NCBI GenBank assembly: GCA_027315345.1
Contig: DAHUYE010000034.1
Location: 1 to 55,607 of the forward strand
Direction: 5' to 3'
DNA: 55,607 nucleotides
From: Actinomycetota bacterium
GTDB taxonomy: Bacteria; Actinomycetota; Acidimicrobiia; Acidimicrobiales; JAJPHE01
Position 1 is the first letter of the stretch, and each line of letters opens with the position of its first letter. A model generated the notes under the pieces. It did not search any database and was not told where the DNA came from. It saw only the letters and a program-made list of their open reading frames with translations. The translations under genes and the position numbers were made by a program. Below, one piece after another: positions 20,725-35,627 of this stretch.

Positions 20725-22644
20725 GTGAGGGAGCCCGAACCTTCCCGAGTGGGAACTTCTCCGATCCGCCTCCGGCCGTACAGGATGGGTGTCTTCCTCG
20801 GGCTGGGACTGCTCTGGGTGGGCAGCCTCCTGAGCGTGCCCGCCCAGGCCGGACCGGCTCGGACGGGTGGAAGTCCGGGGGCGCCGGCCGCCGCCATGCC
20901 CTGGCTCAGCGTCTCCCACCCGGCGGGAGGACAGGCGCAGATAGTCGACCCGTACGGTCGGAGCGTGATCCTGCGCGGGGTCAACCTGGTCGGTCTCGAG
21001 GACGACTACTACACCACCTCGGCGGTCGGCACCGGCGGCTACTCCGCCGCCCCCTTCTGGCCCGTCGATCCGGCTCGCTACCAGGGTCGCTGCCCGGCCA
21101 ACTCCCATGACATATCCGAGCCGCCGGTCTGCGAGGTCCAGGCCGGGCGGCCCGAATACGCGCAGTCATCCGCTCCGGGGTCCGGGGACGATCTGGCCCA
21201 GATGCGGGCGCTGGGCTTCGACGTCATCCGCCTTCCCGTGAACTGGAGCCAGCTCGAGCCGAGCCCGGGTCATTACAGCTCGACCTACATCGACCGCATC
21301 GCCCAGGTGGTCGGCTGGGCCGCCCAGCAGAACATCTACGTGATCATCGACATGCACGAGGACAACTACTCCCGCTTCACCCCGGCCTCGGCGCCGGTGT
21401 CGGCGCCCCCGGTCGTCTCGGCCAGCCAGGAGAGCGGGGGACATGCCGACGGGGCCCCACCCTGGGCCGTCATGAGCCAAGGGGCCCCGGCCGAGGCCCT
21501 GGCTGGACAAAGTGTGTTCAACGCCTACGTGGAGACCGCTTTCACCAACTTCTGGCTGAACCGGACCCCCACCAACGCCGCCGGCCAGGCGCTGCCCGCC
21601 GGCCAGGCCCCCGGGACGGGCCTGCAGGACCACTACATAGGGGCCATGGTCCAGCTGGCCAAACGCTTCGTCAACGACCCCACCGTGGTCGGTTACGACG
21701 TCATGAACGAGCCGCTGCCGGGATTCCTGGCCCCTGGCCTGTTCGATCAGAACTATCTCTATCCCTTCTACGCCAGGGTCATCGAGGCGTTGACCGGCAC
21801 CGTTCAGGGCATCCCTTGTCCGGCGTCGAGCTCCTACACCGCCGGCTGTAGCTATCCCGACCAGGGAGTCGATGACCGGCGCCACCTCTTCTTCGTCGAG
21901 CCTATGGCGGCCCGGAATCTGACCGATGCGGCCGTCGGGGCCTCGGCCCCCTTCACCGCCTACCCGAACATCGTGTACGCCCCCCATGCCTATACCCATG
22001 TCTTCACCGTGGACACCGACGTCCCGGGGGGAGCGGCGTCCGCGGTCTATCCGACCAGCTACAACCAGGCCATGCAGACCGCCTCCCTGGAGGCACGTGC
22101 CCTGGGCGCCGCCTTGTTCATCGGTGAGTACGGGAACTCCGCCGACCAGGACGGCACCATCCTGGCCCAGGAGACGGCCGCCCAACAGACAGCCATGGTC
22201 GGTTCGACCCTGTGGGCCTGGAAGGGCAACTGCGGATCCGGCCAGACCGCCGCCGAGTGCGAGCCCGGACTGTGGTCCGTGTACCAGGGGGACCCCTCGG
22301 CCACTCCGGCTCAGAACCTGGGTCTCATCGCCACCCGAGTGACCTATCTGGACCGGGCCTGGCCCCGAGCCACCGCCGGCACCCTCCAGGGCTACGCCTA
22401 TGACCCGTCCACCGGCGCCTTTTCGATGTCGGCCTCCGGCGCCGGGGCGGTGAGAAGAGGGGACAGGGACCACGAGACGGTCGTCTACGCGCCGGGACCA
22501 CTGGCGGGACCCGTGGTGGTGACGGGCGCGGCCCGCCTCGACGCCGTGATAGCCGAACCGGACGGAACCCGCCTCGTCTACGTGGCGCCGACCGGCCCGG
22601 CCGGCTACGGCGTCGAATTGTCCAGCCGGCCCGCGGCCGGATGA
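20725..22644 (+). CDS. Secreted GH5 glycosidase (endoglycoceramidase-like)
   Basis: The 639-residue protein has an N-terminal signal/anchor (MGVFLGLGLLWVGSLLSVPAQA after a short Arg-rich leader). The (beta/alpha)8 barrel shows ILRGVNLVG, YVIIDMHED, the acid/base Glu329 in VMNEPLPG and the nucleophile Glu468 in FIGEYGNSA, followed by STLWAWK. Insertions and the C-terminal beta domain resemble GH5 enzymes of the endoglycoceramidase/glucocerebrosidase type rather than plain cellulases; the actual substrate is unknown. GTG 20725 has AAAGGA five bases upstream. The stop overlaps the next start (ATGA). Confidence 0.88.
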   Translation: MREPEPSRVGTSPIRLRPYRMGVFLGLGLLWVGSLLSVPAQAGPARTGGSPGAPAAAMPWLSVSHPAGGQAQIVDPYGRSVILRGVNLVGLEDDYYTTSAVGTGGYSAAPFWPVDPARYQGRCPANSHDISEPPVCEVQAGRPEYAQSSAPGSGDDLAQMRALGFDVIRLPVNWSQLEPSPGHYSSTYIDRIAQVVGWAAQQNIYVIIDMHEDNYSRFTPASAPVSAPPVVSASQESGGHADGAPPWAVMSQGAPAEALAGQSVFNAYVETAFTNFWLNRTPTNAAGQALPAGQAPGTGLQDHYIGAMVQLAKRFVNDPTVVGYDVMNEPLPGFLAPGLFDQNYLYPFYARVIEALTGTVQGIPCPASSSYTAGCSYPDQGVDDRRHLFFVEPMAARNLTDAAVGASAPFTAYPNIVYAPHAYTHVFTVDTDVPGGAASAVYPTSYNQAMQTASLEARALGAALFIGEYGNSADQDGTILAQETAAQQTAMVGSTLWAWKGNCGSGQTAAECEPGLWSVYQGDPSATPAQNLGLIATRVTYLDRAWPRATAGTLQGYAYDPSTGAFSMSASGAGAVRRGDRDHETVVYAPGPLAGPVVVTGAARLDAVIAEPDGTRLVYVAPTGPAGYGVELSSRPAAG

Positions 22645-23873
22645 GCGCGCCCCGTCGCGGCCCACAGCCGCCGCGGCCGTTCCGGGTCTTGCGCTGGGTG
22701 CCGCTATCGGCGGTGGCCATCGGCATAGCCGGGGCCCTGGTGGTGGCGGCGGCCCCGTGGAGCTCGGGCGCCATCCCCTACGGCTCGGGCTCGGGGCTGG
22801 AGGGGGGTCCGGCGGTGATACCGGGCTTCAGCGTGCCGCTCGGATACCACGTCGTCTACCGGGTGTCGGGCCAGGGCCTGTCGCCCTACACCGAACAGAT
22901 CTGGGCCGACCGGCCCTTCGACAGCGTGGATCAGACCCAGTCCGGCCCGCCTCCCGGCGGCCCGATCGACCTGGCCACGGTGTCCCGCCTGGGCGCCGAG
23001 GTGCTGACCACCGGTCATTCCGAGCCCGCCCTCATCCATGTCCCGGTGATGATGGGGGCCAGGGACGTCCGGCTGGACGCGGTGATCAGCTCCGCCCTCA
23101 ACGGGGGCTTCCTGCGTTATGAGGGGACATCGACGGTTCTCGGCCGCCGGTGCTGGAACTACCGCAGCGCCCAGTCCCTGGCCGTCACCGGGGCCATGGC
23201 CAAGCTGAGCGGGACCGGAAACTACGTGCTCAGTTGTGTCGACGCCGACGGCATCGTCCTGGCCGAGGCCACCTACAAGAACGCCCGGCTGACCCAGCTA
23301 CGCCAGGCCGTCAGCCTGTCGGTGGGGACGGTGGCGGGAGACACGGCCGAGTACCAGATGGCGGCGGTGACGACTCCATTCAGCCAGGGGGGTGGGTCCT
23401 TCCAGGCCCTGACCCTGTCCAGTTCGCCCCCCGGGCTGTCCTGGATGGCCACCTGGGTCCCGCCCGGCTTCGCCCACGCCGGCCGCTACGCCGTGGTGCC
23501 ATCCCAGCCCCAGCTCTTCGACCAGAGCTCGGGCCAGCCGCCCAGCCCGCTGGGCGTGCCCTCGGGTCTGGTGTCCGAACTCGACGACGCCTATGTGTCC
23601 GGCCCGAACCTCATCGTGGTCCAGCAGGGAGTGACGGCCGGTAACTCGGTGTTCAAGGCTCCGACCGGGGGCGTGAACGTCGCCCTCGGAGCGGTCATGG
23701 GCACCGGCCAGCTGATGCTGTCGGCCACGGCGTCCTTCGTCAGCGCCGAGCCCGACGGGGGGTCCCACTTCGTCCGGGTGTCGGGGACCGTCCCCCCGGC
23801 CGAACTGGTCCGGGTGGCCCGATCCCTGGTGCGGGAAAGCCCGGGGCGACTGGTGCAGCTCCAGGGCGGTTGA
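22641..23873 (+). CDS. Membrane-anchored protein of unknown function (possible LolA/RseB-like fold)
   Basis: The 410-residue protein has one N-terminal membrane segment (VPLSAVAIGIAGALVVAAA) and an outside domain rich in beta strands. Phrases such as YHVVYRVSG, LRYEGTSTVLGRRCWNY and SWMATWVPPGFA recall the RseB/MucB or LolA-like lipid-binding fold, which can sense envelope state, but I see no decisive motif. It is translationally coupled to the GH5 gene, so it may work with that enzyme at the cell surface. The start overlaps the GH5 stop by 4 nt. Confidence 0.7.
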   Translation: MSAPRRGPQPPRPFRVLRWVPLSAVAIGIAGALVVAAAPWSSGAIPYGSGSGLEGGPAVIPGFSVPLGYHVVYRVSGQGLSPYTEQIWADRPFDSVDQTQSGPPPGGPIDLATVSRLGAEVLTTGHSEPALIHVPVMMGARDVRLDAVISSALNGGFLRYEGTSTVLGRRCWNYRSAQSLAVTGAMAKLSGTGNYVLSCVDADGIVLAEATYKNARLTQLRQAVSLSVGTVAGDTAEYQMAAVTTPFSQGGGSFQALTLSSSPPGLSWMATWVPPGFAHAGRYAVVPSQPQLFDQSSGQPPSPLGVPSGLVSELDDAYVSGPNLIVVQQGVTAGNSVFKAPTGGVNVALGAVMGTGQLMLSATASFVSAEPDGGSHFVRVSGTVPPAELVRVARSLVRESPGRLVQLQGG

Positions 23874-24031: not shown

Positions 24032-26254
24032 ATGACCACAGTGACCCCGGGCTTGGGCGCCGGCGCCCCGGCCGTGGCCAGCCGGCTCGACAGGTGGGTG
24101 GAGGACGCCCGGGTCCGGCGGGCCTTCAACTGGGCGGCGGCGGCCCTGGCCCTGTACTGGGTGGTGGAGCGGCTCTGGGATCCCCCCGTCGGGGTCATCC
24201 TCAAAGGCGCCGTCATCGGCGGCCTCTACTCCCTCCTGGCCCTGGGTGTGGCGCTGGTCTACCGGGCCAACCGGATCATCAACTTCGCCCAGGGCGACAT
24301 GGGGGGCGCCCCGGCGGCCCTGACCGTGATGCTCCTGGCCGCATCCCACTGGCCCTATCCGCTGGCCATCGCCACCGGCCTGGTGTCCGGAGTGGTGGTC
24401 GGGGTGGTGGTCGAGTTCGTCATCATCCGGAACTTCTCCCGGGCCCCCCGCCTGGTGCTGACGGTGGTGACCATCGGCATCTCCCAGCTGCTCACCATCG
24501 TGGAAGTCGATCTGCCTCAGTGGTTCGGGTCCAAGGCCCCTCCCCAAACCTTCCCGTCCCCGTTCAACTTCCACTTCAACATCGGGCCCGTCCGCTTCTA
24601 CGGCAACGACGTGCTGGCCATGGTGATGATCCCGGTGGTCATCGTCGGGCTGGGATACTTCCTCAACCGGACCAATATCGGCGTGGCGGTGCGGGCCTGC
24701 GCCGAGAGCGCCGATCGCGCCTCGTTGCTCGGCGTGCCCATCAAGCGGGTCAATCTCACGGTGTGGGCGGTGGCCTCGCTGATGGCCACCATCGCCATCA
24801 TCCTCAACGCCGGGGTGGTCGGCCTCGGCATCGGCTCTCCCCTCGGCCTGTCGGTCCTGCTGCTCGCCCTGGCCGCATGCGTGCTCGGGCGCATGGAGAA
24901 CATGGTGGTCATAGCCGGGGCCGCCATCCTGCTCGGGGTGGTCCAGCAGTCGGTGGTCTGGCACACCGGATCCTCGGACCAGGTCTACATCATCGAATTC
25001 CTCGTCATCATGGTCGGCCTGCTGGCCCAGCGGGGCCGGCTGGCCACCCGGGCCGAGACGGCCGGCCTGTCGACCTGGACCGCCATCCGGGAGGTCCGCC
25101 CCATCCCTCCCGAACTCCGCCGCCTGCCCGAGGTGCTCTACACCCGGGCCGGGCTGGCCGTGGCCGGAGGCGCCCTCGTGCTGTTCATCCCCGCCCTGGT
25201 CGGTGAGGCCCGCACCGTCCTGGCCAGCTTCCTGTGCGCCTACCTCATCATCGCCCTGTCCATGTGGGTCCTGGTGGGCTGGACCGGCCAGATCAGCCTC
25301 GGACAGTTCGGCTTCGTGGGAGTCGGCTCCACCGTGGCGGCCTGGACCAGCCTGCACTGGCACATGGACATCAGCCTCCAACTGGCTGGCGCCGGCGTCA
25401 TCGGCGCCCTGGTGGCCGTGCTCATCGGCATCCCGGCCCTCCGTATACGCGGGCTGATGCTGGCCGTGGCCACCCTCGCCTTCGGCTTCGGAGCCAACTT
25501 CTTCCTGCTCTCGTCCAGTCACTTCTCCTGGATCCCCGACGCTTTCACCCAGATCCCCCGCCTGCCCCTGTTCGGGCGGGTGGACCTGTCCAGTTCCAAC
25601 CGCTTCTACTACTTCTCGCTGGCCGTGCTGCTGCTGTGCGTCGTGGCCGTCCTCGGCCTGCGCAACAGCCGCATCGGGCGGGTGCTCATCGCCGTAAGGG
25701 AGAACGAGCGGGGGGTGCAGGCCTACGGGGTCAACCTGACCCGGACCAAGCTCACCGGCTTCGCCATCTCCGGTTTCCTGGCCGCCGTGGCCGGCGTGCT
25801 GATCTTCGGCGGCCAGCAGTACCTGTACTCGGGCGCCGCCGACCCGCAGTCGAGCCTCGACGTGTTCGTCATGGTGGTCATCGGTGGCCTGGGCTCGATG
25901 ACGGGTGTCTTCGCCGGGGCCATCTACCTGGAGGGTCTGTCCTGGCTGACGACCTCGGTGCCCCACTCCATCCAGAGCATCTTCACCCTGGCCGGCTCCG
26001 GCCTGGGGCTCATCATCATCCTGGCCTTCCTGCCCGGAGGGGTCGGCTCGGCCATCTACCTGGGCCGGGACCGGCTGTTGCGCCTGGTGGCCGACCGGCG
26101 GGGAATAGTGGTCCCGAGCCTGGTGGCCGACATGGCCGTGTACCGGGACGAGCCCGACCCGGCGGCGGGGGCCCCTCCGGAGGAGATGGATCCGCTGGCC
26201 GCCCTGGAGGCGGGCGAGGCGCTGGAATTGCTGGCGGGGTCGGGTCGGTCGTGA
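24032..26254 (+). CDS. Fused branched-chain amino acid ABC permease LivH-LivM
   Basis: The 740-residue protein joins both permease halves in one chain. The LivH half (~residues 40-330) shows LVYRANRIINFAQGD and VRACAESADRASLLG. After a hydrophilic linker the LivM half (~370-690) shows WTGQISLGQFGFVGVGS, LRIRGLMLAVATLAFG, AVRENERGVQAYGVN and the coupling-region motif FVMVVIGGLGSMTGVFAGA. ATG 24032 follows GGGGGA and starts a typical cytosolic N-terminus; the open frame extends upstream without homology-like sequence. The stop overlaps the GTG of the ATPase gene (GTGA). About 155 bp upstream hold no gene. Confidence 0.93.
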   Translation: MTTVTPGLGAGAPAVASRLDRWVEDARVRRAFNWAAAALALYWVVERLWDPPVGVILKGAVIGGLYSLLALGVALVYRANRIINFAQGDMGGAPAALTVMLLAASHWPYPLAIATGLVSGVVVGVVVEFVIIRNFSRAPRLVLTVVTIGISQLLTIVEVDLPQWFGSKAPPQTFPSPFNFHFNIGPVRFYGNDVLAMVMIPVVIVGLGYFLNRTNIGVAVRACAESADRASLLGVPIKRVNLTVWAVASLMATIAIILNAGVVGLGIGSPLGLSVLLLALAACVLGRMENMVVIAGAAILLGVVQQSVVWHTGSSDQVYIIEFLVIMVGLLAQRGRLATRAETAGLSTWTAIREVRPIPPELRRLPEVLYTRAGLAVAGGALVLFIPALVGEARTVLASFLCAYLIIALSMWVLVGWTGQISLGQFGFVGVGSTVAAWTSLHWHMDISLQLAGAGVIGALVAVLIGIPALRIRGLMLAVATLAFGFGANFFLLSSSHFSWIPDAFTQIPRLPLFGRVDLSSSNRFYYFSLAVLLLCVVAVLGLRNSRIGRVLIAVRENERGVQAYGVNLTRTKLTGFAISGFLAAVAGVLIFGGQQYLYSGAADPQSSLDVFVMVVIGGLGSMTGVFAGAIYLEGLSWLTTSVPHSIQSIFTLAGSGLGLIIILAFLPGGVGSAIYLGRDRLLRLVADRRGIVVPSLVADMAVYRDEPDPAAGAPPEEMDPLAALEAGEALELLAGSGRS

Positions 26255-29200
26255 GCCACGCCGAAGCCGACCTCACCGGTCGGACGGGATCAACATCGGC
26301 CCGGTCGCCGCGGGCGTTCTTCAGCCATCTGAGCCAACAGGTGGGCCCGAACGGGATGGGCCCGGTACTGGTGCTGATGCTGGCCTACGGCATCGAGCGC
26401 TTCACTGTTGCCGCCGTCGGCATCCTCGCCCCCAACATCCGCGACAGCTTCCATGTCTCCAACCAGACCTTCATCACCGTATCTACGCTCACCTCGATCC
26501 TTCCTGCCGTCGCCTCCGCCCACATGGGCTACCTGGCCGACCGCGTCAACCGGGTCCGCCTGGCCATCGTGGGAACCGTGGCCGTGGGAATCGTCGGCAT
26601 CGGCCTGGGCCTGTCCCCGACCTTCTGGCTCTTCGGCGTCCTGCTCTTCGCCGCCGGCCTCGGTCAGCTGGTCAACACGCCCACCCACAGCAGCCTGATC
26701 ACCGACTACTACCCGCCCAGCGCCCAGGGGATCACCTGGACCTTCTACCTCTTCGCCAGCGGCGCCATCGGGGTCGTGGCCGGACCGGTCAGCGGGGCGG
26801 TGGCGGCCCTCACCGGCTGGCGGGGCGCCTTCATCATCCTGTCCGTCCCGGTGATCGCCATCGTGGCCCTCCTGGCCCGGCTGCGCGACCCCGGCCGGGG
26901 CGCCTCGGTGGGCCTGGTGGGTGTTCTGGCCCAGAGCGAGGAACATGCCTCCTTCTGGGAGGGTTTCCGCCGCCTCCGGGCCATCCGGTCGCTGCGCCGG
27001 ACCTGGTGGGCGGCCGCCTTCTTCGGCGGCGGGGTGGTGGCCTTCGCCAACCTGCAGAGCATCTTCTTCCACGACGTCTACCACTTCGGCACCTTCGCCC
27101 GGGGCTACCTGCTCGGCCTCTTCGGCGTGGCCGGCCTGGTGGGCACGGTCATCGGCGGGCGCTATGTGCAGCGCTGGCTGCGCACCGCCAAGCCCGAACT
27201 GCTGCCGGTGGTGAACGGGCTCATGGTGGTCGAGTTCGGGGTCGGCACCATCCTCATGGGCGTGCTGCCCGGGCGCTGGCTGGCCGTCGCCATGCTCTTC
27301 GTGCTCGGCATCGGCGCCGCCGGCTTCGCCCCCGCCTACCAGGCCATGGTGGGTCTGGTCACGACCCCGCGCCTGCGGGGCCAGGCCTATTCGTACTCGC
27401 TCATCTGGGTGACCCTCGGGGCCATCATCGTCTCGGCCGTGATCGGCGGGATCGCCAACCATCACGAGCGGGCGGCCACCTGGGTGCTCGGCGCGCTCAT
27501 GGTCATGGCCGGGATGATCGAGGTGACGGCGCGCAAGTTCGTCTCCCGGGACGTGGCCCAGGCCCTGGCCGTCCAGGCCGCCGCCGATGTCGATTCCATC
27601 CTCACCATCCGGGGCCTGGAAGTGGCCTACACCGGAAACCTGCAGATTCTCTTCGGCGTGGATCTGGAGGTCAACGAGGGGGAGATAGTCGCCCTCCTGG
27701 GCACCAACGGCGCCGGTAAGTCGACTTTGCTGAAGGCGGTCAGCGGCACCATGGATCCGATCGGCGGGGTCATCTACTTCAACGGCCGGGATGTCACCCA
27801 CGCCGACGCCGTGACCAAGGCCACCCTGGGCATGGCCCTGGTGCCAGGGGATCGGGGGGTCTTCCCGTCGCTCACCGTGGCGGACAACCTGCGCATCGCC
27901 GGGTGGATGCTGCGCCGGGACCAGGCGTTCCTGGCCCACTCCACCGAGAAGGTCCTCGACTACTTCCCGGTGCTGCGGGAGCGCTGGAGCGTCCCGGCCG
28001 GCAACCTCTCGGGGGGAGAGCAGCAGATGCTGGCCCTGGGCCAGGCCCTGCTGGGCCGGCCCAAACTGCTCATGATCGACGAGCTTTCCCTGGGCCTGGC
28101 CCCCGCCATCGTGGGTCAGCTGCTGGAGACGGTGCGGCGCCTGGCCGAGGACGGGATCACCATCCTGCTGGTCGAGCAGTCCGTCAACGTCGCCCTCACC
28201 CTGGCCAAGCGGGCCGTGTTCATGGAGAAGGGCGAGATCCGCTTCAGCGGGCCCACCGAGGAACTGCTGAGCCGGCCCGACGTCCTGCGGGCGGTGTTCC
28301 TGGAGGGCACGGCCAGCGCCATGGGCGACCGGGAGGTGGAGAGCTCGGCCGATGGTCAGGACCCGGTTACGGCGGCGGAGCCGGCCAGTCCCTCCTTCGG
28401 CATCTCCTACCGGACCTCGGGCCTCAATGGGCACGTCTCGGCCGGACCGGCCCTGGAGACGATCGGGATCTCCAAGCGCTTCGGTGGCGTGGCCGCCACC
28501 CAGGACGTCAGCATCACCTTGCACCGGGGCGAGATCCTCGGGCTCATGGGCCCCAACGGGGCCGGCAAGACGACCATCTTCGACCTCATCTCCGGGTTCA
28601 TCCCGGTGGATTCCGGCCAGATCTTCCTGGACGGGACGGACATCACCAACCTCTCCCCGGATACCCGGGCCCGTCTTGGCCTGGGTCGGTCCTTCCAGGA
28701 CTCCAAGCTGTTCCCCGCTCTGACTGTGGCCGACACCATCAAGGTCGCCTTCGAATGCCAGCTGGAGGTGCGCGATCCCATCGCCGCCGCCGTGCGCCTC
28801 CCAGCCGTATCCGACTCCGAGCGGGATGTGCAGGAGCGGGTGGAGGAGCTGATCGAGATGGTCGGGCTGTCCGCTTTCCGCAACAAGTTCGTCTCCGAAC
28901 TGTCCACGGGAACCCGCCGGATGGTCGACCTGGCCTGCCTTCTGGCCCATGAGCCCAAGGTCATCCTCTTCGACGAGCCGTCCTCGGGGATCGCCCAGCG
29001 GGAGACCGAGGCGTTGGGTCCGGTGCTGCGACGCATTCGGGAGATGACGGACTCCAGTCTGCTGGTCATCGAACACGACATGCCGCTACTGACCGGGCTG
29101 GCGGATGAAGTGATCGCCCTGGAGTTGGGCCGCACCGTGCTGCGGGGCCGTCCCCAGGCGGTGCTGAGCGACCCCCGGGTGGTGGCCGCCTACCTGGGCA

Positions 29201-29382
29201 CCAGCACCGAGGCCGTGTTCCGCTCCGGAGCGGTCCATGCCGGCCCGGGAGCCGAGTCGGAAGCCGTTCCCCGCCCCCGGGCCGGCCGGGCGCGGGGCGT
29301 CACCAAGCGGGCTCCGGCCCGCAAGAGAGCAACCACTGCGAAGAAGGCGTCCCCGCGGACGCCGACCAAGAGAAGCGAGTGA
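26251..29382 (+). CDS. MFS transporter fused to LivF- and LivG-type ABC ATPases
   Basis: One uninterrupted 1043-residue frame. Residues ~35-440 form a 12-helix MFS domain with motif A GYLADRVNRVR. Residues ~449-690 are a LivF-type ATPase: Walker A GTNGAGKST (~485), LSGGEQQ (~586), Walker B LLMIDELSLG. Residues ~735-990 are a LivG-type ATPase: Walker A GPNGAGKTT (~767), signature LSTGTRR, Walker B VILFDEPSSG and H-loop IEHD. The tail is Lys/Arg-rich (KRAPARKRATTAKKAS). GTG 26251 overlaps the permease stop. The ATPases should serve the fused LivHM permease; the attached MFS domain is unexplained, perhaps a second exchanger or a membrane tether. Confidence 0.9.
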   Translation: MSHAEADLTGRTGSTSARSPRAFFSHLSQQVGPNGMGPVLVLMLAYGIERFTVAAVGILAPNIRDSFHVSNQTFITVSTLTSILPAVASAHMGYLADRVNRVRLAIVGTVAVGIVGIGLGLSPTFWLFGVLLFAAGLGQLVNTPTHSSLITDYYPPSAQGITWTFYLFASGAIGVVAGPVSGAVAALTGWRGAFIILSVPVIAIVALLARLRDPGRGASVGLVGVLAQSEEHASFWEGFRRLRAIRSLRRTWWAAAFFGGGVVAFANLQSIFFHDVYHFGTFARGYLLGLFGVAGLVGTVIGGRYVQRWLRTAKPELLPVVNGLMVVEFGVGTILMGVLPGRWLAVAMLFVLGIGAAGFAPAYQAMVGLVTTPRLRGQAYSYSLIWVTLGAIIVSAVIGGIANHHERAATWVLGALMVMAGMIEVTARKFVSRDVAQALAVQAAADVDSILTIRGLEVAYTGNLQILFGVDLEVNEGEIVALLGTNGAGKSTLLKAVSGTMDPIGGVIYFNGRDVTHADAVTKATLGMALVPGDRGVFPSLTVADNLRIAGWMLRRDQAFLAHSTEKVLDYFPVLRERWSVPAGNLSGGEQQMLALGQALLGRPKLLMIDELSLGLAPAIVGQLLETVRRLAEDGITILLVEQSVNVALTLAKRAVFMEKGEIRFSGPTEELLSRPDVLRAVFLEGTASAMGDREVESSADGQDPVTAAEPASPSFGISYRTSGLNGHVSAGPALETIGISKRFGGVAATQDVSITLHRGEILGLMGPNGAGKTTIFDLISGFIPVDSGQIFLDGTDITNLSPDTRARLGLGRSFQDSKLFPALTVADTIKVAFECQLEVRDPIAAAVRLPAVSDSERDVQERVEELIEMVGLSAFRNKFVSELSTGTRRMVDLACLLAHEPKVILFDEPSSGIAQRETEALGPVLRRIREMTDSSLLVIEHDMPLLTGLADEVIALELGRTVLRGRPQAVLSDPRVVAAYLGTSTEAVFRSGAVHAGPGAESEAVPRPRAGRARGVTKRAPARKRATTAKKASPRTPTKRSE

Positions 29383-29404: not shown

Positions 29405-31450
29405 ATGAGTACGGCCAGGCGCGGCGTGGGGGAGATGACCCTGGGCGACATCGGCCGGGGGGTGATGAGGTACCGACCCTTCCTGCTGGCGGTGGCAACC
29501 ATCGTGCTGGTGGTGGTCTTCCTGCCCGGAAAGCCCTCGAGCACATCGTTGGCATCGGGGGGTTCGGTGGCGTCCGGGTCCGGGGCCGGGGGCGCTTCCG
29601 CCGGCGGTTCCTCCTCGGCGGCCTCGGCCGGCTCGGCGGGGTCCGGCTCCGGTGGCTCCGGCGTCGGAGGCAGCGGCGCCGCCGGGGGATCCTCGGGTGT
29701 GGGAGGCAGCTCGCTCAGTGCCGGGTCCGGGTCGGCCACCGGGGCGTCGGGGACCTCGGGGTCCTCCGGATCGGGCGGATCCTCGCTCACCGCAGGGGGG
29801 TCCAGCGCCCCGGTGTCGACCACCGACCCTCATTGCGACCCCAAGACCGGTCACGAGGCCATTCCGTCCGTCTACACCCCGCCCTGCGTGCCCAACTGGT
29901 CCCCCTCCCAAGGCAACGGAGGCAGCACCTACAACGGGGTCACATCCAGCACCATCACCATTGCCGTTCCCCTGGCCCAGAACCAGGGCGAAGCGGCGGC
30001 GCTGCGGGCGGCCTCCAACGATCCCGATACCCAGGCCGAGATCGAGCAGGGCAATGCCGATGCCGTGAACCTCTTCGAGCACCACTATCAGACCTACGGC
30101 CGCAAGGTGAAGCTGGACTACTACACATCCAGTTACAACTCGGGCGACTCTCTGGCCGCCCAGAACGCCGAGTGCCAGTCGGACGCCAACAAGGTGGCCA
30201 ATCAGATGCACGCCTTCGCCTCCTGGCTCGACTGCGGCACCAACGCCTATGAGAACACGCTGTCCGCCGACGGGGTCCTGTGCTTCTGCACCGTTACCGT
30301 GGCCGCCTCCTACTACCTGCAGTGGGCGCCCTACGTCTGGGGCACCGGCCTGCCGGACGAGACGGCGGCCTACAACATGCGGGCCGAGGTGATCTGCAAC
30401 AACCTGGTGCCTTACGCTCCCAAGTACGCGGGCAGTGCCAACCTGAACAGTCCGGTGGCCAAAAAGCGCGTGTTCGGATTGATATGGCCGGGCGCCTCCA
30501 GCCTGGACGACACGGACATCTACCAGTCCGGGGCCCAGTACTTCGCCGATAAACTCAAAGCCTGCGGGGCCGACTTGGCCGAGGACGTGTCGTTTCCGAT
30601 CGTCGACCCGACCGGACCGGCGGATGCGCAGACCCTCATGGCCAAGTTCCAGAGCGCCGGGGTGACCACCATCATTTTGGTCTCGGACCCGCTGGACCCG
30701 ATCTTCCTCACCGGGGCGGCCACCAAGCAGGGCTACGACCCGGAGTGGTTCGACAGCGGCTCCGCCCTCATCGACACGACCCACTACGGACGCCTGTACG
30801 ACCAGACCCAGTGGAAGCACTCCTTCGGTATCAGCTTCCTGGCCGACCGGGTCGAGCCCGCCGCGTCTGACGCCTTCAACTTCTACAACTGGGAGTACAA
30901 CTCCCAGCCCCCGGATCCTCCCGACTACCTAATCAATCAGGCCTTCTTCGAGTGGCTGTTCACTGGCCTCCAGCTGGCCGGCCCGGACCTGACCCCGTAC
31001 CACCTCCAGTGCGGTATGCCCCCTTACACGGAGAAGACCAAGACCGGAGCTCTGGGGGCGGCCCAGGGGGTCGCCTGCGTGGGCAAGACGTACCCCGGGC
31101 TGTTCGGCTACATCGGGCCCCTCAACTGGCAGAACCGGGTGAGCAACGCCCTCATCGCCTACGGAGACCGGTTCTGGCCCTGGGACTACTACAACCAGAT
31201 CAACGACGGCGTGCTGATCTGGTGGAACTCCACCGCCTCCGGACCGGATGAGGACAACAGCTCCGGTACCGGCATGCAGGAGTACATGAACAACGGCAAG
31301 CGGTATCTGTGGGGCGAGTTCCCCACCGGGCAGCAGCCGTGGTTCAGCCCCACCGGGGCGGTGGACATCTTCACCTCCCTGCCGGCTGCCGACCAGCCCC
31401 CCAGCTACCCGTACTCCTGCTACTACCTCTGTAATTCCCCCGGCTACTGA
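29405..31450 (+). CDS. Membrane-anchored substrate-binding protein of the Liv-type ABC system
   Basis: The 681-residue protein has an N-terminal membrane helix (FLLAVATIVLVVVFLPG) and, instead of a lipobox, a Gly/Ser-rich tether of about 90 residues. The periplasmic-binding-protein fold of family 6 (leucine/amide-binding type) follows from ~residue 160: ITIAVPLAQNQGE, an ANKVANQMHAFASW region and VTTIILVSDPLDPIFLTGAA. It is Cys-rich for the family (for example CDPKTGH, LCFCTV, YSCYYLCN), suggesting disulfides. ATG 29405 has GAGG upstream; earlier in-frame starts lie in the ATPase tail. Ligand unknown; it could be an amino acid, amide or urea. Confidence 0.87.
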   Translation: MSTARRGVGEMTLGDIGRGVMRYRPFLLAVATIVLVVVFLPGKPSSTSLASGGSVASGSGAGGASAGGSSSAASAGSAGSGSGGSGVGGSGAAGGSSGVGGSSLSAGSGSATGASGTSGSSGSGGSSLTAGGSSAPVSTTDPHCDPKTGHEAIPSVYTPPCVPNWSPSQGNGGSTYNGVTSSTITIAVPLAQNQGEAAALRAASNDPDTQAEIEQGNADAVNLFEHHYQTYGRKVKLDYYTSSYNSGDSLAAQNAECQSDANKVANQMHAFASWLDCGTNAYENTLSADGVLCFCTVTVAASYYLQWAPYVWGTGLPDETAAYNMRAEVICNNLVPYAPKYAGSANLNSPVAKKRVFGLIWPGASSLDDTDIYQSGAQYFADKLKACGADLAEDVSFPIVDPTGPADAQTLMAKFQSAGVTTIILVSDPLDPIFLTGAATKQGYDPEWFDSGSALIDTTHYGRLYDQTQWKHSFGISFLADRVEPAASDAFNFYNWEYNSQPPDPPDYLINQAFFEWLFTGLQLAGPDLTPYHLQCGMPPYTEKTKTGALGAAQGVACVGKTYPGLFGYIGPLNWQNRVSNALIAYGDRFWPWDYYNQINDGVLIWWNSTASGPDEDNSSGTGMQEYMNNGKRYLWGEFPTGQQPWFSPTGAVDIFTSLPAADQPPSYPYSCYYLCNSPGY

Positions 31451-31545: not shown

Positions 31546-31618
31546 GCCCGAGTAGCTCAGACGGCAGAGCAACGCACTCGTAATGCGTAGGTCAGGAGTT
31601 CGATTCTCCTCTCGGGCT
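31546..31618 (+). tRNA. tRNA-Thr (CGU anticodon)
   Basis: The cloverleaf is complete: acceptor GCCCGAG/CTCGGGC, D-stem GCTC/GAGC, anticodon stem ACGCA/TGCGT with loop CTCGTAA (anticodon CGU, reads ACG), variable AGGTC and T-stem AGGAG/CTCCT with TTCGATT. The discriminator is T and CCA is not encoded. Its 3' end abuts the integrase region, the usual place for site-specific insertion. Confidence 0.95.
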
Positions 31619-31636
31619 CAGAGAAAGACCTGGTCA

Positions 31637-31654
31637 GAGGCCATATTTGGCCTC
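31637..31654 (+). promoter_or_regulatory. 7-bp hairpin between tRNA and integrase
   Basis: GAGGCCA and TGGCCTC pair perfectly around TATT. It could end the tRNA transcript or form part of the attachment region. No T-run is present. Confidence 0.4.
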
Positions 31655-31660
31655 ATCGAA

Positions 31661-31738
31661 ACCCAACAAATTTCCTGCTAGGGTAAAACCCAACAGAAAA
31701 CCCTACAACTCTTCCGGACTTTGCGAAATTTGTTGGGT
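31661..31738. repeat. Candidate attL with integrase arm-type sites
   Basis: ACCCAACAAATTTC (31661-31674) and GAAATTTGTTGGGT (31725-31738) form a perfect 14-bp inverted repeat. A third partial direct copy, ACCCAACAGAAA, lies at 31688-31699. The block is clearly AT-richer than the flanks, sits between the tRNA-Thr 3' end and the integrase start, and has the layout of arm-type integrase sites. The core crossover would be inside the tRNA 3' end. Confidence 0.65.
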
Positions 31739-31761
31739 GGAGTTGAGCGGGGAGATGGGTG

Positions 31762-32949
31762 ATGGCGGGCAGCATGCGGCTGGTCCGAGGGACCGACGTC
31801 TGGGAGCTGAGGGTGTACCTCGGGCGCGACAGCACCGGGCGCGTCCGCCAGCGCAGCCAGCGCTTCCAGGGGACCAAGCGGGCGGCCGAGCGCGAGCTGG
31901 CCCGGCTCGTGATCGCCCAGGAGGACCAACCGGCCGTGGTTCCCGAGGCGCCGGTTCAGTGGGGCCCGAACACGACCATCAACGACGCCCTCGAGGCCTG
32001 GCGGTCTAACGGCTGGGACGACCTGTCACCCAAGACCTCCCGCCGTTACGAGAGCGCGTGGGACGTTCACATCCGGGCCAGCTTCGGGCGCCGCCGCATC
32101 GCCAGCATCGGTCCCTACGACGTGGAGCGTTATTTCCGAGCACTCAAGGCCGCCGGCCTGTCCGAGGGCAGCGTCCGCATGATCCGCTCCGTGCTGCACC
32201 GGGCGTGCCGGCTGGCCCGGCGCTGGAGTGGCAACGTCCTGCCCAACCCCATCGCCGATACGGAGCTGCCCCGCTGGGACATGGCCGATCGGGCCGAGCC
32301 GGTCCGAGCCCCCTCGGTCGATGAGGTCCTGGCTCTCATCGCCACGGCTCGGTCGCGCGATGAGCGCCTCGGTGTGTTCCTCCGGGTCCTGGCCGCCACC
32401 GGTATGCGCCGGGGCGAGGCGGCCGCCTTGCGCTGGTCGGATCTCGACTCCGAAGCGGGGACCCTGCGGGTGGACAAGGCGGTGGTGGCCGCCCGCGGGG
32501 GCGCGGAGCTGCGTTCCCCCAAGACAAGGGCCTCCATGCGAACCCTGGCCGTGGATGACGACACCCTGGCCGAGCTGGCCGATCTCCGGGAGCGCCAGGC
32601 CGGCCTGGCCACCAGCTGCGGGCTGGAGCTGGCCCCAGACGGGTTCGTCTTCTCCTACGAGCCCGGCGGCAGCGATCCTCCTCACCCCGACACCTTCAGC
32701 CACGGCCTGGCCCGGACCCGGTCCAAGGCGGGCGTCGCCAGCGATGTCCACCTTCACTCCCTTCGCCACTTCCACGCCACGGTGGTCGACTCGGTGATCT
32801 CCGAGGCGCAGAAGCAGGCCCGGCTGGGATGGTCGACGGTCCAGATGGCCCGGCACTACACCGACGCCGTGCCCGCCGAGGACCGCCGGGCCGCCGAGCA
32901 CGTGGCCCGCCTTCTGGCCGGCGCCGCTGTCCCGTCGGGCGCTGAGTAA
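31762..32949 (+). CDS. Tyrosine site-specific integrase
   Basis: The 395-residue phage/ICE-type recombinase has an N-terminal arm-binding domain (WELRVYLGRDSTGRVRQRSQ), a SAM-like core-binding domain (residues ~65-165) and a catalytic domain with Arg in ATGMRRGEAAALRW, HxxR in HLHSLRHFH and the nucleophile Tyr in QMARHYTDAV. It sits 144 bp after tRNA-Thr, so insertion into that tRNA is very likely. ATG 31762 has GGGGAG upstream; a GTG directly before it is possible. Confidence 0.95.
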   Translation: MAGSMRLVRGTDVWELRVYLGRDSTGRVRQRSQRFQGTKRAAERELARLVIAQEDQPAVVPEAPVQWGPNTTINDALEAWRSNGWDDLSPKTSRRYESAWDVHIRASFGRRRIASIGPYDVERYFRALKAAGLSEGSVRMIRSVLHRACRLARRWSGNVLPNPIADTELPRWDMADRAEPVRAPSVDEVLALIATARSRDERLGVFLRVLAATGMRRGEAAALRWSDLDSEAGTLRVDKAVVAARGGAELRSPKTRASMRTLAVDDDTLAELADLRERQAGLATSCGLELAPDGFVFSYEPGGSDPPHPDTFSHGLARTRSKAGVASDVHLHSLRHFHATVVDSVISEAQKQARLGWSTVQMARHYTDAVPAEDRRAAEHVARLLAGAAVPSGAE

Positions 32950-32988
32950 GGCCATGGGCGAACTGCCCGCTTCGCTCGTCATGGACCA

Positions 32989-33183
32989 ATGAAAGTCCGG
33001 GAGGTCATCTCGATTCTCGAGCGGGAGGGCTGGGCCTTGGCCCGCCAGAGCGGGTCGCACCGCCAGTTCAGCCATCCGGAGCGCCCCGGCGTGGTGACCG
33101 TGGCCGGCAACCTGGGCGACGAGGTGCCCCGGGGTACGCTGGCCAGCATCTGGCGCCAGGCCGGAGAGAAGGGACCCCGATGA
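32989..33183 (+). CDS. hicA: HicA-type mRNA interferase toxin
   Basis: The 64-residue protein has the dsRBD-like HicA fold: VREVISILEREGWALARQSG, then the catalytic-His motif SHRQFSHPE, then VTVAGNLGDEVPRGTLASIW. HicA cleaves mRNA when free of HicB. The stop overlaps the start of hicB by 4 nt (ATGA). As an island passenger it could stabilise the element. Confidence 0.9.
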   Translation: MKVREVISILEREGWALARQSGSHRQFSHPERPGVVTVAGNLGDEVPRGTLASIWRQAGEKGPR

Positions 33184-33395
33184 GCGGGTACGCCGTGATC
33201 ATCGAGAACGAGGGCGAGTCCTGGGGTGCCTACGTGCCCGACCTGCCCGGTTGCGTGGCCGTCGGGGCGAGCCGGGCCGAGGTCGAGCAGCTGATCCGAG
33301 AGGCCATCCCCATGCACCTGGACCTGATGCGGGAGCAGGGAGAGGAGATCCCGCAGCCCTCAGCGGCGGGGGCGATCGTCGTCCAAGTCGCCTGA
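33180..33395 (+). CDS. hicB: HicB-type antitoxin (short form)
   Basis: The 71-residue partially degraded RNase H-like domain reads YAVIIENEGESWGAYVPDLPGCVAVGAS, then EVEQLIREAIPMHL. It lacks the extra C-terminal DNA-binding helix-turn-helix of longer HicB proteins, so autoregulation may depend on the complex or another factor. It is coupled to hicA. Confidence 0.9.
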   Translation: MSGYAVIIENEGESWGAYVPDLPGCVAVGASRAEVEQLIREAIPMHLDLMREQGEEIPQPSAAGAIVVQVA

Positions 33396-33430
33396 TCGGA
33401 CCCGGCCGACTCGGCCGAGGTTCTGAGCCG

Positions 33431-33775
33431 TCACCGGCGGCGGGACCAGGCTTCACTGCCGGTCTTTCCCCGAGAGCAGTCCGATCGCGACGGAACCCGT
33501 CCCCCTCGCGACTCCTGAAGGTCGACTTGGCGCCCTTGAGCCTCTGTGGTGACGGGCTCCTCGGTGCCCACCGGCGGCAGTCCGTCGAGCAGGCGAAGCA
33601 CCGCGCGGCGCGGGATCCGGATTCGGCCGTTGATCCGGTACACGGGTAGCGGCAGATCGCCCCGCTTGATCGAGCGGTAGAGGCTGTCGCGGCTTTCGCC
33701 CAGGAGAATGGACGCCTGGTCGACGCTGAGCAAAGGCTTGGGCGCCTGGTCCTGGCGGTTGGGTCCAGGGCTCAT
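33431..33775 (-). CDS. Excisionase-like helix-turn-helix protein
   Basis: The 114-residue protein carries the MerR-like excisionase motif LLSVDQASILLGESRDSLYRSIKRGDLP-type helix followed by PVYRINGRIRIPRRAVLRLL. Such proteins direct excision of tRNA-integrated elements. ATG 33775 precedes the domain closely. The basic C-terminal tail (about 45 residues) is longer than usual for Xis. It converges on hicAB and lies 2 kb from the integrase. Confidence 0.82.
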   Translation of the reverse strand: MSPGPNRQDQAPKPLLSVDQASILLGESRDSLYRSIKRGDLPLPVYRINGRIRIPRRAVLRLLDGLPPVGTEEPVTTEAQGRQVDLQESRGGRVPSRSDCSRGKTGSEAWSRRR

Positions 33776-33814
33776 CGATCCACCGCCCGGGCGCCCCACC
33801 CGATCAGGTCCCAT

Positions 33815-34091
33815 GCTCCCAGCCCCGTCCGGCGCCGGGGGCGCCTCCTCGCGCAGTCATGCACCCCGTCGGCTTCCGGTCGTCTCCGTGGGGCCGCAGC
33901 GCGGCCTACCGCGCTTGCAGCAGCGTCGGAGGCTGCTGGTGGCCACGGGGGAGGGTGCCCGCGCGGCGTGGGCTCCTCGCCCCGGACCGGCCGTGTCTGG
34001 TGGAGCGACCCCAGGCGCCCGAGCACGGGGACCACTGTGACCAGCCCCGGCCCGACGCGGGCAGCCGACACCACGGGCTGCCGACTCTGTC
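33815..34091. other. Gap without recognised gene
   Basis: The 277-bp gap separates two minus-strand genes. Open frames exist on both strands, but none has protein-like composition, and I see no hairpin with a clear role. Confidence 0.5.
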
Positions 34092-34811
34092 TCATGCCTG
34101 AGCCCGGGCCAGGGCCTCGGTGGCCAGATGAAGCTGGTAGTACACGGAGCGATAGAGCCCGGGGCCGGCTGTCGTCCCCACCGCCCGACGAGGCGCGCCG
34201 GCCGCCGCGGCCAAGAGGAGCCGGGCGTGGCTGGGGTGAAGGCGCCCTCGCCGATGGGCCTCGGTCACGGCCAGCACCACCCGCTCGGCCACAGTCCGGG
34301 CGTCATCAAGCTCGGTGGTGGGCAGGGGGACTCGGGACAGCTCGACCCAGCGCGCCTCTCGGCGCCGGGCGGCACGGCGTTGCCCCCGCAGAGCGCCCAC
34401 TGCCCGGTCGATGAGAACCCGGCCGGAGCTGTCCGCCTCGGTACCGGCGCCGGACACGATGGCCTCCCAGAGGTGGTTCAACAGCTCGGCGCGGACGTCA
34501 TCCAGACACTCCGAGACCCGCAGGCTCGGTCGACGCTCGAGGCCGGCTTCCTGTATGCGGCCCACGAGGATCTGCAGGAGTGTGCGAGCGGCGAAGCTGT
34601 CCGCACCGGCCAGTCGCAACAAGGACGCCTCGATCGGTCCGGCCTCGCCCGCCTCGACGCTCTGGGCGAAGCCGACCAACTCGGCGGGAGAGGCGTGGCC
34701 GGAGAGCACCGGCTCGGCCTCGACCCAGGCGGCCAGGGCCCGCCTGGCCGTGGCGGTGGCGCCTAGGCGGGCCCAGTCAGCCTCCAGCTCAGTGAACGGG
34801 GAAGTGCTCAC
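34092..34811 (-). CDS. Unknown helical protein of the integrative element
   Basis: The 239-residue, strongly helical protein is Ala/Arg/Leu-rich. Segments such as DVRAELLNHLWEAIVSG, ARRREARWVELSRVPLP and TVAERVVLAVTEAHRRGRL recall regulator or sigma-like proteins found on actinobacterial integrative elements, but I do not recognise a family. GTG 34811 (VSTSPFTELEADWARLG) is chosen; the open frame extends to 34946 through the TGGGGA repeat block, which is unlikely to code. It may be regulated by those repeats. Confidence 0.6.
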   Translation of the reverse strand: MSTSPFTELEADWARLGATATARRALAAWVEAEPVLSGHASPAELVGFAQSVEAGEAGPIEASLLRLAGADSFAARTLLQILVGRIQEAGLERRPSLRVSECLDDVRAELLNHLWEAIVSGAGTEADSSGRVLIDRAVGALRGQRRAARRREARWVELSRVPLPTTELDDARTVAERVVLAVTEAHRRGRLHPSHARLLLAAAAGAPRRAVGTTAGPGLYRSVYYQLHLATEALARAQA

Positions 34812-34833
34812 ACCGGGATTATCCGGATCGGAC

Positions 34834-35067
34834 TCCCCAAAAGGTTCCCCATGACCTTCCCCAACAGAGAATTTTTTCCGGCCCTCCCGGACCCGTTCCG
34901 GGTGCTCCGGGACGGGCATGGGGAGTGAGCATGGGGAGTTCTCCATCCCTGGTCAGAGCCCCTGTCGGCCGATTTCGCTGAGCCCATGGGGAATGAGTGG
35001 GGAAAGCGATGGGGAACGTCAGGGTGCAGAAATTTCTTGGTCCCCACGAGATCAACCCGTTCCCCAG
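34834..35067. repeat. Cluster of ten TGGGGA(A) repeats, candidate replication or control locus
   Basis: TGGGGA occurs ten times in 234 bp. Three minus-strand copies (34834, 34845, 34857) are followed by five plus-strand copies (34918, 34931, 34986, 34997, 35009) and two more minus-strand copies (35041, 35060). Six copies have the full TGGGGAA. The arrangement resembles iterons of a replication origin or multiple operators. No coding evidence spans the block. A nested inverted repeat (TCCCGGA/TCCGGGA at 34885-34912 around ACCCGTTCCGGGT) lies in the middle. Confidence 0.7.
34885..34912. repeat. Nested inverted repeats inside the TGGGGA block
   Basis: Outer arms TCCCGGA (34885-34891) and TCCGGGA (34906-34912) enclose the palindrome ACCCG-TTC-CGGGT (34891-34903). 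The two overlap in sequence, so they could form alternative structures. Confidence 0.5.
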
Positions 35068-35627
35068 CCGCTCCAGGAGCCACTTTCCGATGACTCGGCC
35101 GCCAGGGACTCCCGAGAGGGCTTCGGTGGCCTCGGTGGCGAGCGGATGGCGTACTTCTTTGCCCTGTCCGCCCGGCCCCGGATGGCTGAGGGGCCCCAGC
35201 CTGTCGCCCGGGATGGCGGCACAACCCCTGCCCGGGCCTCTGAGCTCGGAGGCGGCTTTGTGCCCCCACCAGCGCCTCGCTGTTCTTGGTCATCGCAGTC
35301 CCCTCAGCTCCGAGCCCACGCGGCCCTACCTGTATTTCGGGCTGTGGCAAGACCGAAGTCCGAAAAGAATCCCGTCCAAGCCCCAGATTTCTCTTCAATC
35401 GGCCCGGGCGAGTTGCGCCGCGGCCCGGTTTGCGGCTCGGGGCCGTCACCCATTCCGTCCCCGGAGACCGACCTGTCGGTCGCGGCTACAGGCCCCGAAA
35501 GTCAAGGGCGGAAGCCGACACACCCTGGCATCTCCGATCATCCCGGAGCCCCGCCGGCCGGCGTCCGGCCCCAGGTCAGGGGCCATCTTTTTGAAAAACG
35601 GCGATCCGCTGCCCGTACTACAAGTAG
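35068..35627. other. Non-coding leader region of the relaxase
   Basis: This 560-bp stretch has no convincing gene. It contains the 16-bp palindrome at 35466-35481. A minus-strand frame shows protein-like words (GGRVIGKWLLERLGNG) but no start or family, and may be an old remnant. Confidence 0.5.
35466..35481. promoter_or_regulatory. Perfect 16-bp palindrome, candidate oriT or operator
   Basis: GACCGAC (35466-35472) and GTCGGTC (35475-35481) flank CT, 146 bp before the MobF relaxase start. MobF relaxases nick next to an inverted repeat that usually lies close to their gene, so this is a candidate oriT hairpin. An operator is the alternative. Confidence 0.4.

Follow-up and report, generated by a model that had tools for sequence, protein, structure and literature searches.

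Transport driven by ATP and transport driven by gradients are commonly regarded as distinct kinds. One pathway may use both: in Rhodococcus jostii RHA1, CamM, of the major facilitator superfamily (MFS), and the ATP-binding cassette (ABC) system CamABCD re-import excreted cholate metabolites of a single pathway (PMC8399759). CamM and CamABCD are separate transporters. In contrast, we describe here a stable family that builds an MFS carrier and the ATPases of an importer into one chain, starting from a window of 55,607 nt (the whole stretch of DNA analysed, contig DAHUYE010000034.1 of assembly GCA_027315345.1, from an Actinomycetota bacterium). Positions 26251–29382 (+) of this window are a single open frame of 1043 residues, without internal stops, that joins an MFS domain to a LivF-like and a LivG-like ATPase. 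With the Liv-type (HAAT) importers, such as LivHMFG and UrtBCDE, the system shares two BPD_transp_2 permease halves, ATPases of the LivF and LivG types and, in some of its relatives, a Liv-type binding protein; it differs from them in that the permeases are fused, the ATPases are fused, an MFS domain sits on LivF, and the binding protein is membrane-anchored and, in the window copy, too diverged for Pfam. By structure and by sequence, the MFS domain best matches Spinster (Spns), SLC17 and DgoT carriers, whose acidic residue in transmembrane helix 1 (TM1) and arginine in TM4 are common in the family but absent from the clade of the window; the TM4 glutamate (HnSpns Glu129, DgoT Glu133) is lacking throughout, and two ATPases are attached. 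Titles and abstract openings of the open-access literature revealed no comparable MFS-ABC fusion, and none of the best 25 of 198 NCBIfam matches is a model spanning the whole fusion. The parts are of known kinds; their stable combination, in two layouts, is new to us.

The domain composition that the initial annotation had read from the letters alone was borne out. Pfam identifies MFS_1 (best stretch 42–311, E = 1.7e-38; 132.8 bits against a cut-off of 33.4) and two ABC_tran domains, and the best NCBIfam models fall on residues 451–672 (UrtE) and 735–984 (LivG, UrtD). When the whole chain is scored, UrtE (304 against 285.8) and LptB (276 against 240) pass their cut-offs and the LivF and LivG models fail, which leaves the ATPase subtype unsettled because such scores sum both ATPases. 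In a 40-row family alignment the ATP motifs are intact in the LivF-like (GTNGAGKST at 484–492, S587-G588-G589, D610-E611) and LivG-like (GPNGAGKTT at 767–775, S885-T886-G887, D908-E909, H942) domains, and the MFS domain keeps the motif A residues D97, R98 and R101. An AlphaFold model of the entire chain, made from a 40-row alignment, has a mean predicted local distance difference test score (pLDDT) of 84.6 and a predicted TM-score (pTM) of 0.72. By sequence, the nearest solved relatives are the bacterial Spinster homologue 6e8j (E = 5.1e-38), which we take to be HnSpns as this fits the residue numbers of the alignment, human Spns1 and DgoT; by fold, Foldseek returns DgoT, Spns2 and 6e8j, with query TM-scores of 0.70–0.83 in the first five hits. 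VIA-align superimposes the fusion model on Spns1 with Z 41.1 and a root-mean-square deviation (rmsd) of 3.4 over 411 aligned residues, in a fold list that is dominated by the MFS domain and tests little of the parts past residue 444. Scored alone, the MFS domain remains below the cut-off of the SLC17/D-galactonate model TIGR00893 (44.8 bits against 395).

MFS-LivF-LivG in one chain represents a genuine transporter architecture rather than an error of sequencing. The source is a draft genome of 106 contigs and most related loci come from metagenome-assembled genomes, which would favour an artefact of assembly or gene calling; we regard this as practically negligible because the fusion recurs across many related bacteria and in the same frame at every junction. 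Far from being the single case for which the initial annotation had taken it, it occurs seven times in the source genome, next to three LivFG sets of the same family without MFS, and in one frame in 35 of 79 related loci, some of them cut by a contig edge; in one further locus (L062) a frame break lies just inside LivF. These loci came from a scan of 84,980 species genomes, as the best 80 of 208 stretches; by their titles, 78 belong to actinobacterial lineages and one, without MFS, to Acidobacteriota (L055), and restriction to the phylum is unproven since only those best stretches were retained. Wherever a LivF lies no more than 400 bases from an MFS domain (57 of 57 cases, L062 among them), the two share one frame at the junction, and in 0/57 is the MFS a separate gene within that distance before LivF. 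A profile covering MFS, junction and LivF Walker A (threshold E 1e-30) matched 58/99 relatives and 25/396 genomes spread over the phylum, with four candidates scored per genome in the latter search and one genome (G000) in both sets; the matches continue into LivF in at least 47/99 and at least 19/396. The fusion is also present in a strain genome, that of Jiangella asiatica 5K138 (L045).

The initial annotation had allowed that a stop or frameshift, or separate proteins from internal starts near 27590, could undo the fusion. The junction in the window contains no stop or frameshift, in agreement with the 57 junctions above. Internal initiation is likewise unsupported, as no Shine-Dalgarno-like stretch precedes the in-frame starts at residues 420–460 (0/4) or 686–737 (0/2), although this test is weak because such a site was found at only one of four real operon starts, and that of the fusion gene itself is among those that lack it.

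Immediately upstream lies the coupled LivH-LivM fusion that the initial annotation had reported, with its GTGA overlap; Pfam places two BPD_transp_2 stretches in it. The gene holds this position in 39/42 one-frame fusion loci (L001 included), the remaining three beginning at a contig edge, and a one-base codon overlap with the fusion gene recurs in 28/39 loci by our own gene calls. The anchored, Cys-rich binding protein of the annotation also stands: it has an N-terminal membrane segment and a Ser/Gly-rich linker, as do several relatives, and 12 Cys. No Pfam family matches the window copy at E 0.01, and Peripla_BP_6 is matched by 11/31 rows of an alignment of the window and 30 relatives (best 2.6e-12). 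Since each fusion chain contributes a single LivF and a single LivG, and each LivHM chain both permease halves, there would be one MFS per importer; the "six-part machine" of the annotation is more exactly a five-part ABC importer with the MFS as an added sixth part.

We consider, with a probability of about 0.5, that the locus encodes a Liv-type (HAAT) ABC importer, formed by the substrate-binding protein (SBP), LivHM and LivFG, with a tethered MFS as a second pathway, open to the organic substrate of the importer or to a related one. The anchored SBP would pass its ligand to LivHM, and LivF-LivG of the fusion would power import, as is established for the Liv family, the ABC part being presumably an ordinary ATP-driven importer. 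The MFS would be a real Spinster/SLC17-like carrier, offering a second membrane route to the same compound or one related to it, perhaps an organic anion or a lipophilic acid, and might serve for low-cost uptake, exchange or as a release valve, depending on the direction of flux; it would be held 1:1 beside the importer through the short helical link to LivF. That the two share a substrate, the same or a related organic compound, is probable. Among the roles proposed in the initial annotation, two carriers for one substrate or related ones fits best, because the MFS diverges with permease and SBP beyond LivF and is lost or freed while the ABC set stays; a hybrid ATP/gradient carrier is possible but much less likely.

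Across 36 systems, MFS distances correlate with those of LivHM (0.67), LivG (0.62) and LivF (0.58), and across 30 systems with those of SBP (0.63). Given LivF, the partial correlations are 0.47 for MFS-SBP and 0.42 for MFS-LivHM, against 0.12 for MFS-LivF given LivHM, suggesting that the MFS has evolved in closer step with the parts that handle the substrate than with its motor. The MFS is under purifying selection, with ratios of nonsynonymous to synonymous rates (dN/dS) of 0.12–0.39 in 14 pairs outside the window clade, where LivHM has 0.07–0.40 (Nei-Gojobori estimates, rough at this high GC content). These correlations argue against two unrelated transporters having been joined for co-expression, membrane targeting or equal dosage, with different substrates and no crosstalk, as do the constant position and order of the MFS on LivF in both layouts and the lack of separate MFS genes before LivF. 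Such a joining, which we hold to be unlikely, would agree with the much faster divergence of the MFS (mean distance 1.42, against 0.53 and 0.60 for the ATPases) and with the roughly ten changes of MFS presence on the trees and the free MFS at several places, from which the MFS-LivF link appears dispensable.

The second layout, with MFS-LivF in one chain and LivHM-LivG in another, was found in 5/110 systems, including Embleya (L093). In a plasmid search, one of the 5000 records counted was covered to at least 80%, that of Embleya, where the fusion is unannotated. A LivF+LivG tree of the 110 systems, with its root placed on seven ordinary sets in which LivF and LivG are separate genes (six of these sets belong to the source genome), has the two-chain layout as the first branch, and then MFS-LivF-LivG, LivF-LivG and LivHM-LivF-LivG; this tree and that of LivHM are both quick ones, and L098 and L110 are long branches on the former. 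MFS presence changes 11 times on the LivFG tree and nine times on the LivHM tree, the first count being slightly high because L062 was scored as MFS-less for its frame break and L065, L078 and L081 begin at contig edges. A single fusion event without later change was thus discarded. The simplest story would be one old MFS-LivF joining, repeated MFS loss and several releases as a free protein, although counts of changes cannot by themselves separate gain from loss. As a separate observation, LivH, LivM, LivF and LivG, that is, a whole Liv permease-ATPase set, form a single polypeptide encoded by one open frame in L060, L066, L071, L074, L075, L077, L079 (Aciditerrimonas ferrireducens), L080, L082, L083, L091 and L092.

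On the LivFG tree MFS-less systems nest among MFS-bearing ones, which indicates that the importer can live alone. The MFS domains of the fusions group in one clade, which is separated from seven distant free MFS proteins with 98 in the Shimodaira-Hasegawa-like approximate likelihood ratio test (SH-aLRT). Six other free-standing MFS proteins nest at four places among the MFS domains of MFS-LivF-LivG chains; one more, L117, falls with the MFS-LivF set, with no strong support. Nine rows had been labelled free_close, but L009, which meets a contig edge, and L062, which has a frame break, are truly fused and were excluded from this count. Six of the seven free copies have no LivHM of the same family nearby (three of their contigs carry one some 40–115 kb away, three do not), and one of their genomes, G026, has none at E 1e-40; the carrier can therefore live alone as well, and each half, MFS and importer, probably works alone. 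Four of the seven (L115, L116, L118 and L127) adjoin AMP-binding, P450 or FMO-like genes, the contig of L115 ending 139 bases past the MFS stop. L114 is the only free MFS beside a complete ABC set, its permease belonging to an MFS-less clade and its MFS nesting with fused ones; as a case of an MFS serving an ABC set in trans, one in seven is suggestive and may be due to chance.

In Spinster carriers, TM1 Asp41, TM4 Arg122 and TM4 Glu129 (HnSpns numbers) form a proton-switch network (preprint PMC13192786), and active transport by DgoT needs both Asp46 and Glu133 (PMC6532931 and PMC10149257). Aligning the window protein to 6e8j, with numbers counted along the alignment, sets residue 52 against Asp41/Asp46 and residue 132 against Arg122, and the switch is not conserved in it, the three sites being Thr52, Leu132 and Gln139. 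In 56/63 family rows residue 52 is acidic and residue 132 is Arg; the other seven (the window, L005, L006, L009, L032, L111 and L112) have neither member of this pair, and no row has just one of the two (0/63). The pair was lost jointly at three independent places on the tree, a number too small for a sign test to reach significance, and the Fisher value of 1.8e-9 is naive in that it ignores kinship; in joint change by strict residue identity it ranks second of 325 column pairs, behind 237/240. None of the rows carries an acidic residue at the position of Glu129 (0/63), and an acid four residues further on occurs in 34/63 but in none of the window clade. This absence of charged membrane residues that most of the family keeps had escaped the initial annotation, whose premise that the MFS runs on an ion gradient is weakened for the window copy. 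Since the pair is so distributed, most of the family could use a modified form of proton coupling, and the window MFS is probably not proton-coupled by the known route; a substitute for the lost pair could be Glu49 and Arg50, which the window clade has in TM1.

The missing pair also suits a different role, in which the MFS would be a non-transporting membrane sensor that binds a ligand and tunes the ATPases through the LivF link, in the manner of the SLC5/STAC histidine kinases, which carry SLC5 transporter-like domains. In favour of a sensor, the link is modelled as a helix leading into LivF, and six cytosolic-side charges (R98, R101, D152, R216, R250 and R376) are kept in at least 59/63 rows. 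Five of these six are also present in 6/6 distant free MFS proteins and are therefore no sign of ATPase contact; together with the pair kept in the other 56 rows and the free relatives with no LivHM of the family nearby, this makes a sensor improbable in our view, to about the same degree as a mere joining for co-expression. The residues E237, R250 and R284, common in the fused clade and absent from six distant free proteins, were considered as a signature of contact within the fusion and rejected, as nested free relatives keep most of them.

The arsenite pump ArsA-ArsB shows that a carrier may run alone or with an ATPase, although ArsB is not an MFS protein, ArsA is not an ABC ATPase and no Liv permease is involved. 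By analogy, ATP hydrolysis by LivF-LivG could drive or gate the MFS as well as LivHM, as might be suggested by the direct link to the ATPase and by the triple loss of the proton-switch pair, which would deprive the carrier of its normal energy source. We judge this very unlikely: LivHM is directly upstream in 39/39 loci with the upstream side covered, so that the ATPases have their normal partner, versions with a free MFS or none exist, Glu49/Arg50 could replace the lost pair, and we know of no socket for Liv-type ATPases in MFS folds. Hardly more credible is a form limited to the window clade, in which proton coupling would have been given up and the alternating access of the MFS would be set by the LivF-LivG ATP cycle; if true, an ATP-powered or ATP-gated MFS would share its motor with a Liv permease, one ATPase pair serving two membrane pathways.

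Several results weigh against a tethered second carrier for the substrate of the importer. LivF follows LivHM (0.79) more closely than the MFS does, and the tracking of SBP and LivHM by the MFS may merely reflect shared fast evolution. The MFS and LivFG trees agree only in part. In the window clade, which lacks the acid/base pair of the proton switch, the MFS may be uncoupled or inactive, and its dN/dS, 0.40–0.63 in five pairs, is higher than elsewhere, although LivHM (0.35–0.53, three pairs) and SBP (0.51, one pair) are high there too. Lastly, no common substrate or pathway emerged from the 114 of 173 candidate neighbour genes that were scanned, among which the commonest Pfam family is AMP-binding (6/114), with five alpha/beta hydrolases.

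The family constitutes a natural test of cooperation between ATP-driven and gradient-driven pathways, with built-in controls in the MFS-less relatives, the free-MFS relatives, the systems with LivG moved to the permease and the carriers with or without the proton-switch pair. Such fusions may well carry the annotation "MFS transporter" or "ABC transporter", either of which would miss half of the function.

Table 1. Features of the fusion locus and adjoining region, in window coordinates
Feature	Position	Strand	Basis or remarks
Accessory protein with membrane-like N-terminus (cluster c4), conserved	22641–23873	+	No Pfam match
LivH-LivM fused permease, 740 aa	24032–26254	+	Two BPD_transp_2 stretches, E 6.3e-63
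GTGA overlap of LivHM stop and fusion GTG start (at 26251)	26251–26254	+	Seen in sequence
MFS-LivF-LivG fusion gene, 1043 aa	26251–29382	+	Open frame; Pfam MFS_1 and two ABC_tran; model pLDDT 84.6, pTM 0.72
MFS carrier domain, residues 25–440	26323–27570	+	Pfam; separate model pLDDT 89.2, pTM 0.86; Foldseek
Thr52 codon, TM1 site	26404–26406	+	Asp/Glu in 56/63 family rows
Leu132 codon, TM4 site	26644–26646	+	Arg in 56/63 family rows
MFS-LivF junction: helix 428–444 past last MFS helix, short loop, first LivF strand at 451	27532–27600	+	Model secondary structure and confidence
LivF-like ATPase, residues 451–686	27601–28308	+	NCBIfam; VIA-align to 1ji0, Z 33.5, rmsd 2.3, 239 aligned
Disordered LivF-LivG linker, residues 687–732	28309–28446	+	pLDDT <50 at 684–728
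LivG-like ATPase, residues 733–985	28447–29205	+	NCBIfam LivG match 735–984
Basic disordered C-terminal tail	29206–29379	+	pLDDT <50 at 992–1043
Membrane-anchored substrate-binding protein, 681 aa, 12 Cys	29405–31450	+	N-terminal membrane segment; relatives match Peripla_BP_6
Phage-type integrase	31759–32946
HTH_17 gene	33434–33814
TrwC relaxase	35628–36947

The accessory gene upstream of LivHM belongs to a cluster (c4) of eight entries, corresponding to seven distinct places as L002 and L084 are the same, every one of them in MFS-fusion loci. Two other accessory clusters were noted. Cluster c1 (L010:8970-10022 and 27 further loci) consists of proteins of about 330 residues, mostly encoded by the first gene after LivFG with the MFS present or absent; the two inspected begin with a signal-like stretch and have a membrane segment close to the C-terminal end. 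Cluster c2 (L050:636-1997 and 13 further loci, including L114:7977-9245) has proteins of about 460 residues; in L114 and in one clade without MFS, the gene sits before that of the binding protein. Profile comparison revealed no relation among c1, c2 and c4, and Pfam gave no name to any of them in scans of one member per cluster (two for c1). Genes for a MoxR-type AAA protein, a DUF58 protein and a transglutaminase come after the fusion gene in one group of MFS-bearing systems (L033:4050-8702, L036:9023-14342 and L045:8922-13926), identified by Pfam in L033 and by clustering in the other two.

Upstream of the accessory gene, at 20725–22644 of the window, there is a gene resembling those of GH5 cellulases, which also matches an endoglycoceramidase model weakly (NF051847, 79 bits against a cut-off of 700). 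On the other side, a tRNA-Thr(CGT) gene just beyond that of the binding protein is followed by integrase, HTH_17 and relaxase genes, so that an integrated mobile element probably abuts the operon at 31546–36947. The last 20 bases of the tRNA-Thr are found once more in the genome, in the start region of contig C53 (445–464), which could be a far attachment site or belong to a second tRNA.

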